The notes below the pieces were generated by a model. That model saw nothing but the letters and a program-made list of their open reading frames with translations, did not search any database and was not told the DNA's origin. From contig NZ_WUQZ01000008.1 in NCBI RefSeq assembly GCF_009829075.1, positions 62,001 through 126,000 on the forward strand: a stretch of 64,000 bases of DNA, in the 5' to 3' direction. Shown here one piece after another: positions 11,179 to 13,543 of this stretch (positions within the stretch are counted from its first letter, which is position 1; every line of letters starts with the position of its first letter). A program made the translations under genes and the position numbers. The stretch is from Sphingobacterium composti (GTDB taxonomy: Bacteria > Bacteroidota > Bacteroidia > Sphingobacteriales > Sphingobacteriaceae).

Positions 11179-11649
11179 CTATAAAGTAATTTGACGTTTG
11201 ATGCTTTCTTCTAAGGAAATGATTGTCTCCGTGCGTTGAATACCTTTCAACCCTTGAATGTCTTCATTCAAAACTTTACGCAGGTGTGCAGTATCGCGAC
11301 ATACTATTTTTGCAAACATACTGTATTGTCCTGTACAATAATGAAGCTCCACTACTTCTTTAATGTTTTTTAACTGTGCTACTGCATCGGAATATTGTGA
11401 CCCTTTTTCTAAATATATACCCAAAAAAGCTGTAATGTCAAATCCTACTTTTTGAGGGTTAATAATTAAGTTAGATCCATGAATAATTCCTAGTTCTTCC
11501 ATCTTTTTCATGCGAACATGGATTGTTCCACCCGATACAATCAATTTTTTCGCAATTTCAGTGTATGGAATAGATGCATCTTCCATGAGAATGGAAAGAA
11601 TTTGAACATCAAGATTGTCTAAATCGTAATTAGAATAATTTTTTTCCAT
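11179..11649 (-). CDS. Lrp/AsnC family transcriptional regulator
   Basis: A feast/famine regulator that binds DNA as a dimer/octamer and usually senses an amino acid. The N-terminal HTH (about 10-60: LDNLDVQILSILMEDASIPYT, then EIAKKLIVSGGTIHVRMKKM) is followed by the RAM ligand-binding domain (about 70-150, VELHYCTGQYSMFAKIVCRD). The total of about 156 residues is the family norm. I start at 11649 (MEKNYSNYDLDNLD); an upstream ATG would add seven residues. A perfect hexamer palindrome at 11672-11687 directly upstream is a candidate autoregulatory site. It is divergent from the gene at 11940. Confidence 0.93.
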   Translation of the reverse strand: MEKNYSNYDLDNLDVQILSILMEDASIPYTEIAKKLIVSGGTIHVRMKKMEELGIIHGSNLIINPQKVGFDITAFLGIYLEKGSQYSDAVAQLKNIKEVVELHYCTGQYSMFAKIVCRDTAHLRKVLNEDIQGLKGIQRTETIISLEESIKRQITL

Positions 11650-11671
11650 AAATGTGATTTTTTCCAACAAC

Positions 11672-11927: not shown

Positions 11928-11933
11928 GGGAGG
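11928..11933 (+). promoter_or_regulatory. Shine-Dalgarno-like sequence before the 11940 gene
   Basis: GGGAGG stands six bases before the ATG at 11940. Purine-rich SD sequences are rare in this window, so this one fixes the start and suggests stronger than usual initiation. Confidence 0.5.
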
Positions 11934-11939
11934 AAGAAT

Positions 11940-12983
11940 ATGCAAATAGAAGATGTCATCATATCACGCAAAAAGCCAATTTATCCAGTTGGCCAAGGTT
12001 TAGCAAAATATTTGAAAATGTATCAGCGTGATGCGAAGTTGCCTATTTCTTATTTTGATTTGTTGAATTTTCAAGAAACAGTTCCAGTGATGGACAAATT
12101 TGGTAATGATACCTTTTGGGAAACCCCTTTGTATCCGCCTTATATTCAGGATCATTTGTACGAAGGATTAAAAGTTATTTATGCCAAGCTTAAAGCCTCA
12201 GGAAATACACGTATTGTTCAACACAAAATCATTGATCGGATCGAATACTGTGCTTTTGGGAATACACGACCATTCCGTATTCGTATTATCAATAGACTGA
12301 ATGATGTGTACGATTATTTTTATATCAAACAAGCTGATGCATCACGTATATATGGTCTAGAGCTGGAAGAAATTCTTTCACCCAATCAGGTGAATTATTT
12401 ATATGATTTCGAAACCCTAGTGGAGGAACATATTGTTGGTATTCCCGGTGATGTATTCAGTAAAACAAGAATTACACATCCAGATTATAACCAAACACGC
12501 ATTGCAAAGGAATTTGTGAAGTTTAATGAGCGCTGTACAATTGCATTATTAGGCGATATGCGTGCTTATAATTTTGTGATGCAGATTACTCCGGATTTTG
12601 ATGATTTCCAATTTCGTATACGCGCAATAGATTTTGATCAGCAATTTTATGAAGGAAATCCAAAAGTTTATATGCCACAATTTTTCAAAGAGTGTTTTCC
12701 ATACGTGAAATTGTGTATGGAGCATTTGACTGATAAGACGGTTTCTCAGTATCAGCAAGAAGAACGATCTTCAATTGTGCATCGGGTCAGAAGTGAGCGG
12801 CATCGTATCAAGGATCTGCGTGATGCCTCAATTGGCCAAGAACTTTCAACGCCAGAAAATATACGACAATTGCGTGAAGGATACGCAAAAATATACGATA
12901 ATGAGCAGTACTATAGATGTAAGACGATGACTGATATTGTGGAGTTAAACGTAAAAAATGTAGTTCGATCGGTACAGATTTAG
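11940..12983 (+). CDS. Protein of unknown function with possible kinase-like motifs
   Basis: 347 residues, soluble, no signal peptide. I do not recognise a named family. The middle of the protein has the order of elements seen in aminoglycoside phosphotransferase/protein-kinase-like folds. These are a strand with lysine (DYFYIKQAD, Lys130), an acidic helix (ELEEIL), a hinge-like VEEHIVGIPG (161-170), a catalytic-loop-like GDMRAYN (Asp206, Asn211) and a DFD triplet (231-233) after a beta strand. This is inference from motif order only. The C-terminal 80 residues are helical and charged (RHRIKDLRD). It is transcribed divergently from the Lrp/AsnC regulator and shares its stop bases with ruvC. 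Confidence 0.7.
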   Translation: MQIEDVIISRKKPIYPVGQGLAKYLKMYQRDAKLPISYFDLLNFQETVPVMDKFGNDTFWETPLYPPYIQDHLYEGLKVIYAKLKASGNTRIVQHKIIDRIEYCAFGNTRPFRIRIINRLNDVYDYFYIKQADASRIYGLELEEILSPNQVNYLYDFETLVEEHIVGIPGDVFSKTRITHPDYNQTRIAKEFVKFNERCTIALLGDMRAYNFVMQITPDFDDFQFRIRAIDFDQQFYEGNPKVYMPQFFKECFPYVKLCMEHLTDKTVSQYQQEERSSIVHRVRSERHRIKDLRDASIGQELSTPENIRQLREGYAKIYDNEQYYRCKTMTDIVELNVKNVVRSVQI

Positions 12984-13543
12984 CGTATTCTGTTTTCGTT
13001 ATCTTTTACAAATGCTGACCAGCCCGAATAACTTTTGGAGCCGCTAGTCGTGTTCTGTTGAAAGGAATGACAAACAGCTACAGCTAATCCATCTGTTGCA
13101 TCTAGAAATTCTGGTGTTTCCTTAAATCCTAATAAGTTTTGCAACATGGCAGCAACTTGCTCTTTGCTGGCGTTACCATTTCCAGTTACGGATTGTTTAA
13201 TTTTCCTAGGCGAATATTCAAAAATGGGAATATCTCTACTCAAAGCTGCCGCCATTGCTACACCTTGTGCACGACCTAGTTTTAACATCACTTGAATGTT
13301 TTTACCATAAAATGGAGCTTCCAAAGCCACACAATCAGGATTATACTCTTCTATGAGGGCTAGCACTTTTTTGAAAATACGTTGCAATTTCAAGCCATGA
13401 TCATCCAAGTGTCCCATTTTTACTACACCCAATGTTTGGAGTGAAACTTTTTTACCTGTTTCTTTTACCACACCATATCCCAATACTACCGTACCTGGGT
13501 CGATACCAAGAATGATTCTTTCTTTGGCTTTTTGCTTTAACAT
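12980..13543 (-). CDS. ruvC: Crossover junction endodeoxyribonuclease RuvC
   Basis: Resolves Holliday junctions with RuvAB. The RNase H-like fold shows all four acidic catalytic positions: Asp15 in ILGIDPGT, Glu in VALEAPFYGKN, and the two aspartates of FLDATDGLAVAVCH. The length of 187 is normal, with a slightly longer C-terminus (GSKSYSGWSAFVKDNENRIR). The ATG at 13541-13543 is followed directly by basic residues KQKAKER. It is a single gene, convergent with the preceding one (stops interlocked at TTAG) and divergent from the flippase-like gene at 13633. Confidence 0.96.
   Translation of the reverse strand: MLKQKAKERIILGIDPGTVVLGYGVVKETGKKVSLQTLGVVKMGHLDDHGLKLQRIFKKVLALIEEYNPDCVALEAPFYGKNIQVMLKLGRAQGVAMAAALSRDIPIFEYSPRKIKQSVTGNGNASKEQVAAMLQNLLGFKETPEFLDATDGLAVAVCHSFQQNTTSGSKSYSGWSAFVKDNENRIR

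Follow-up and report, generated by a model that had tools for sequence, protein, structure and literature searches.

The window (the whole stretch of 64,000 nucleotides of Sphingobacterium composti DNA that was analysed) contains a confirmed open reading frame with an ATG start (Table 1), the 347-residue product of which probably represents a family of catalytically active kinases whose body resembles that of PI3Ks, as predicted from fold and motifs. The family is one of its own and is named by none of the libraries checked (Pfam, NCBIfam and PDB sequences, with PADLOC checked for the window protein only). Bacteria have many kinase families and the fold itself is familiar; what appears to be new is a widely kept, native bacterial family that combines a PI3K-like body with the lack of a library entry. 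This protein, which has neither a name nor a function in the annotation libraries checked, is carried by 99 of 395 sampled genomes of the phylum, roughly one in four, and would, if active as a kinase, give these bacteria a phosphorylation step that is so far uncharted. The initial annotation had described the protein as kinase-like and its family as one without a name, and this description is upheld by a model with an N-lobe and a C-lobe, by PDB matches that, among those listed, are kinase-fold proteins only, and by invariant motifs of the catalytic type.

Table 1. Features of the kinase-fold gene and its surroundings (positions in the window; residue numbers of the protein in brackets)
Feature	Position	Strand	Basis or remark
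Gene for the 347-residue kinase-fold protein	11940..12983 (stop codon included)	+	Open reading frame and matches in relatives
Loop GNTRPFR (107–113) between the first two core N-lobe strands	12258..12278	+	G-N-[ST]-x-P-F-R
YIKQADASR (128–136), strand lysine Lys130 with invariant Asp133, Ser135 and Arg136	12321..12347	+	78/78 rows
αC-like helix (134–146) with invariant Glu141 and Glu143	12339..12377	+	Model and alignment
Hinge EEHIVGIPG (162–170)	12423..12449	+	Alignment and model
Putative catalytic loop GDMRAYN (205–211): Asp206, Arg208, Asn211	12552..12572	+	Alignment
DFD (231–233), probable metal-binding triplet in place of DFG	12630..12638	+	78/78 rows
Divergent Lrp/AsnC regulator	11179..11670	-	PF01037 and HTH
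ruvC, convergent neighbour	12980..13543	-	PF02075
Shine-Dalgarno-like GGGAGGAAG	11928..11936	+	Sequence; not conserved

AlphaFold2 prediction from a 54-row alignment yields a confident two-lobed kinase fold (pLDDT 91.5, pTM 0.88). In the model, a helix (residues 19–27), a hairpin (46–51/57–64) and a long helix (67–86) precede the N-lobe core, which consists of strands 96–104, 112–118 and 124–131 (the last bearing Lys130), the helix 134–146, and strands 153–156 and 159–163. Next come, in order, the hinge, helices 170–176 and 185–202, the catalytic loop (205–211), strands 212–218 and 223–229, the DFD triplet and the helices of the C-lobe. All PDB rows listed by the two fold-search programs, Foldseek and VIA-align, are kinases or pseudokinases. 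The 50 best VIA-align entries for the whole model are without exception PI3K, PI4K or PIKK structures (Z 11.1–13.6), headed by Vps34 (2x6j; Z 13.6, rmsd 4.5, 272 residues aligned). To see whether this resemblance stems from the N-terminal part, residues 88–347 were predicted alone (pLDDT 88.7), and 49 of the best 50 entries for this core belong again to the PI3K/PI4K/PIKK group (Z 10.2–11.8), with p110γ as the best (Z 11.8, rmsd 4.7, 223 aligned) and Helicobacter CtkA (Z 10.1, 197 aligned) as the 50th. VIA-align only re-ranks the candidates of Foldseek, which places Vps34 first for the whole model (E 9.3e-5) but has only five PI3K/PIKK rows among its first 50, with ordinary protein kinases beside them. 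For the core, the 50 best Foldseek rows listed are all protein kinases (E 9.3e-5 to 7.6e-4). The TM-scores of Foldseek by query length are low (0.2–0.4). A search of a viral structure library returned mostly giant-virus protein kinases (best E 1.2e-5) and was not informative. The kinase fold of the model can thus be taken as secure. On a PI3K-type architecture the VIA-align and Foldseek rankings disagree, and a placement near PI3Ks is likely rather than proven.

The motifs were examined in a merged alignment of 78 rows (77 of them distinct) that includes the window protein and members from across the class, the other rows being 37–94% identical to the window protein. YIKQAD, the acidic helix, EEHIVGIPG, GDMRAYN and DFD, which had been picked out from the sequence of the window protein, all lie where they were claimed to lie, and their key residues are invariant. 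Lys130, Asp133, Ser135, Arg136, Gly139, Glu141, Glu143, Gly205, Asp206, Asn211, Asp231, Phe232, Asp233 and Gln234 never vary in the 78 rows. Because this invariance holds among rows of such low to high identity, it indicates strong purifying selection on the putative catalytic pattern rather than chance. Lys130 lies at the end of its strand (124–131) in the model, and the sequence that follows (K-x-[A]-D-[A]-S-R in the family) provides a K-x-x-D-x-x-R pattern in every row. In the loop between strands 96–104 and 112–118, Asn108, Pro111 and Arg113 are present in all 78 rows and Phe112 in 77. The hinge begins where strand 159–163 ends in the model and retains Glu162, His164, Gly167 and Pro169 throughout. 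The catalytic loop, modelled between helix 185–202 and strand 212–218, has the pattern GD-[M]-[R/H]-x-x-N, in which GD and Asn are present in all rows, Met in 77, and position 208 is Arg in 73 and His in five; DFD comes after strand 223–229. One correction to the motifs as first described is that the loop reads LLGD rather than HGD, so that the HGDxxxxN form does not apply.

The PI3K/PI4K/PIKK group (PF00454; Vps34, p110, PI4KIIIβ, mTOR, SMG1) supplies the best VIA-align matches of both the whole model and the core, and part of this likeness extends to individual residues. Human p110α, Vps34 and PI4KB carry K-x-G-D-D-L-R at the strand lysine (letters checked against the PDB), and the acid at K+3 and the arginine at K+6 coincide with those of the present family. 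When the motif is written as K-x-G-[DE]-D-L-R-Q-[DE], the family agrees at K, the K+3 acid and the K+6 arginine and differs at K+4, K+5 and K+8; the last is Asp or Glu in PI3Ks, but Tyr in 72 of the 78 rows (Tyr138 in the window protein) and acidic in none. In mTOR, the K+3 acid works in the ATP site. A K-x-x-[DE]-x-x-R pattern is absent from E. coli HipA, UbiB, SrkA and SelO, which served as four kinase-fold controls. The GNTRPFR loop may occupy the place of the PI3K P-loop, and a conserved proline stands 19 residues before the lysine in the family, compared with 18 in Vps34. A helix and three strands precede the αC-like helix in PI3Ks, and the model of the window protein has the same topology. 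The catalytic loop is GDRHxxN in p110α and Vps34 and D-x-[RH]-x-x-N in the family (with His in 5 of the 78 rows); according to excerpts of one article, PI3Ks retain Arg or His in this loop (PMC4702295). On the other hand, PI3Ks have DFG where all 78 rows have DFD, the stretch from Asn211 to Asp231 spans 20 residues in the window protein compared with 13 in p110α and Vps34, and the segment after DFD is not basic in the window protein, unlike in p110α. In addition, members of the family are about 340 residues long and carry no domain beyond the kinase fold, unlike PI3K, PI4K and PIKK proteins.

The protein probably functions as a cytosolic, single-domain, ATP/Mg-dependent phosphotransferase with a body laid out most like those of PI3K, PI4K and PIKK. 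Lys130 would hold the ATP phosphates in partnership with either Asp133 or an acidic residue in the helix that follows; Asp206 would be the catalytic aspartate; and Asn211 and Asp231 of DFD would bind magnesium. Arg/His208 of the catalytic loop would help to place the transferred phosphate or the substrate. Judged from their places in the fold, Asp206, Asn211 and Asp231 (and Lys130) are expected to lie around one pocket.

Sequence and profile methods give no link to any kinase. Pfam, NCBIfam, PADLOC and PDB sequences offer no convincing match to the window protein, and neither this protein nor any of 25 family members matches PF00454. The best E values of these 25 members are 0.0047 in Pfam (Sec6, one member), followed by 0.0062 for IL10 (two members), and 0.047 in NCBIfam, and that of a profile of the 25-member set is 0.25 against PDB sequences; Sec6, IL10 and the other weak matches are scattered over unrelated families and are taken as chance. 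HHalign comparison of the merged 78-row profile with PI3Ks, PKA, HipA, UbiB, SrkA and SelO, a weak test with targets that were single sequences or three rows, gives scores that fall among those obtained with 15 unrelated proteins of E. coli. PF00454 itself was found in none of 148 genomes of the phylum, in a search for which 14 control genomes provided no strong positive control (one weak match, none over the cut-off). Queries other than locus tags and accessions retrieved from the open-access literature no paper recognisable as describing the family; the nearest, a survey of Legionella kinases, deals in its excerpts with other families (PMC9758233).

The family is widely distributed in Bacteroidota. 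Matches are present in 44 of 59 genomes of one sample (the genome of the window itself, all 35 others of the genus, and 8 of 23 from other families) and in 96 of 295 genomes of the class, a count that includes one genome with stop-interrupted fragments only (G323) and two with partial matches at contig starts (G140, G178); 28 of the carriers in the phylum sample lie outside the class. The term orphan, used in the initial annotation, is therefore apt in that the family is unnamed in the libraries checked, but not in the sense of a rare gene. The best 80 of 565 relatives are all from Bacteroidota, and include Sphingobacterium, Pedobacter, Chitinophaga, Hymenobacter, Pontibacter and Dyadobacter. 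Each carrier in the three genome samples has one match, except G263 with two copies and G323 with two fragments. The second copy in G263 (L073:5222-6238), which coexists with a normal one, is 37% identical and has by far the longest branch; it retains the catalytic residues tested. The fragments in G323, a 7-Mb genome, are short, contain internal stops and represent a decayed copy (G323:C1:3158142-3158413; L076). Five genomes of the same family (G114, G237, G265, G313 and G663) are without the gene although congeners of the same genera carry it, which indicates that it is dispensable in some lineages. In the tree, copies from Dyadobacter and Siphonobacter (L102, L114 and L116) branch apart from those of other Cytophagales and group with Sphingobacteriaceae copies in a 22-row clade (support 100/99), a placement that suggests horizontal transfer.

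No family-wide neighbour was found in 92 flanking loci (the gene was not placed in L076, L136 and L149). Among the seven loci in which neighbours were scanned against Pfam, the gene adjoins a malic-enzyme/phosphotransacetylase protein and an MlaE permease in Chitinophaga (L129), a LytTR regulator in Pontibacter (L141), and a tRNA_Me_trans protein and a MobA-like protein in Dyadobacter (L102). Inspection by eye of 15 loci, some with long open frames, revealed no second domain, and the extra upstream residues of the long frames look like an open frame read outward. As neighbours differ between loci and no fusion was recognised, the gene looks like a stand-alone unit, the neighbourhood of which yields no pathway clue. 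A toxin–antitoxin role was considered and set aside, the flanking loci having no family-wide partner. In the window, the convergent ruvC shares four bases with the end of the gene (12980–12983), so that the two stop codons overlap.

With somewhat less than even confidence, the protein can be taken for a member of the PI3K/PIKK kinase branch that is native to bacteria, encoded by an old, single-copy Bacteroidota gene that is core in the genus, and not for a host-directed effector. If so, its small stand-alone domain would show what form this kinase branch takes beyond eukaryotes, and might be a deep-branching relative of both lipid kinases and mTOR-type protein kinases. If the PI3K-like build reflects homology, it bears on the origin of the eukaryotic lipid and PIKK kinases, a question that a compact protein of about 340 residues makes testable.

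It is unlikely that the protein is instead a far-diverged Ser/Thr kinase of the HipA/CtkA type, with a PI3K resemblance that is common to the whole group. Such a kinase would have a more familiar bacterial origin, the kinase fold is shared, and apart from the PI3K group the best 50 entries for the core contain CtkA alone, with a Z of 10.1 that lies within 1 of many PI3K rows and is thus tied with them; however, the best PI3K Z (11.8) is 1.7 higher. No HipA_C or other kinase Pfam match was obtained for the window protein or the 25 members, HHalign to E. coli HipA is at noise level, and HipA itself is absent, as is choline kinase, from the best PDB rows listed for the whole model. Furthermore, E. 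coli HipA is without the K-x-x-[DE]-x-x-R pattern and reads TDGHAKN, without GD, and the present gene has no family-wide partner. Eukaryotic-like protein kinases (Pkinase) are matched by Foldseek at E values of about 1e-4, but the window protein differs from them in its additional N-terminal hairpin and long helix, and no Pkinase is among the best 50 VIA-align rows.

One version of the favoured reading as a kinase with a PI3K-like body, namely a lipid kinase that acts on inositol phospholipids or sphingolipids as a bacterial counterpart of PI3K or PI4K in function, is decidedly unlikely. Its PI3K/PI4K-like shape is in its favour, and ceramide phosphoryl-myo-inositol has been reported in Sphingobacterium spiritivorum in excerpts of one study (PMC9246714), for which reason an inositol-lipid kinase was worth testing; however, the same excerpts state that Sphingobacterium lacks homologues of the known inositol-lipid cluster or has them only very infrequently (PMC9246714). 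In six Chitinophagaceae loci (L125–L130), the next downstream gene comes from one cluster (cluster 40), the L129 member of which is by Pfam the MlaE lipid-transport permease and begins about 60 bases past the gene, but only that one group has this neighbour. No inositol-phosphate synthase (PF07994) was found in the genome of the window (G000) or in the two same-genus genomes of a 295-genome class sample, drawn with the settings used for the gene count, and the enzyme occurs in that sample in 6 of 96 carriers compared with 12 of 199 non-carriers (Fisher p 1.0). Co-occurrence thus gives an inositol-lipid role no support, although inositol uptake is possible. The non-basic segment after DFD, unlike that of p110α, also argues against a lipid substrate. 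Taking together the conserved Arg/His of the catalytic loop, the unsupported inositol-lipid link, the non-basic segment and the lack of a pathway neighbour, there is a slight preference for a protein as the substrate over either a lipid or a small molecule, and about an even balance between a protein and those two combined.

A small-molecule kinase of the ordinary APH or choline-kinase type, to which the motifs had been likened in the initial annotation, is highly doubtful. In APH-type enzymes the order is a lysine, an acidic helix, a hinge, GDxxxxN and DFD, and the family has the same order; in addition, Foldseek does not separate kinase classes here. However, the closest shapes by VIA-align are PI3K, PI4K and PIKK, APH is absent from the best rows listed by either program for the whole model or the core, the histidine of HGD is replaced in LLGD, and none of the 25 members matches Pfam APH at E values up to 1. 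A kinase fold with a non-phosphorylating role (AMP transfer, glutamylation or a dead scaffold) is likewise improbable: SelO, annotated as a protein adenylyltransferase in E. coli, is a kinase-like protein that transfers AMP, but HHalign to SelO is at noise level and the canonical phosphotransfer residues are invariant in all 78 rows, which is unexpected for a dead kinase.

An unusual Shine-Dalgarno sequence and the divergent Lrp/AsnC gene had been read as signs of a regulated, well-expressed gene. Both features exist, with mutL behind the Lrp/AsnC gene in the window, but a stretch comparable to GGGAGGAAG occurs within 25 bases of the start in only 3 of 77 aligned relatives (and also in L028, a relative outside that alignment set). 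Of the 92 flanking loci, 22 have the Lrp/AsnC gene just upstream (separated by one small open reading frame in L090); all 22 are from Sphingobacterium, Rhinopithecimicrobium or Parapedobacter, and the arrangement is therefore local synteny among close relatives and not a property of the family. As neither feature is conserved, they do not show that the gene is regulated or well expressed. A promoter scan found five candidates compared with a mean of 6.8 in shuffled sequences, which is no excess. Terminator-like flags numbered two, compared with 0.7 expected; the flagged sequence, a short inverted repeat with some GC that lies within the gene (12377–12394) and has T-rich sequence after it on both strands, is probably due to chance.
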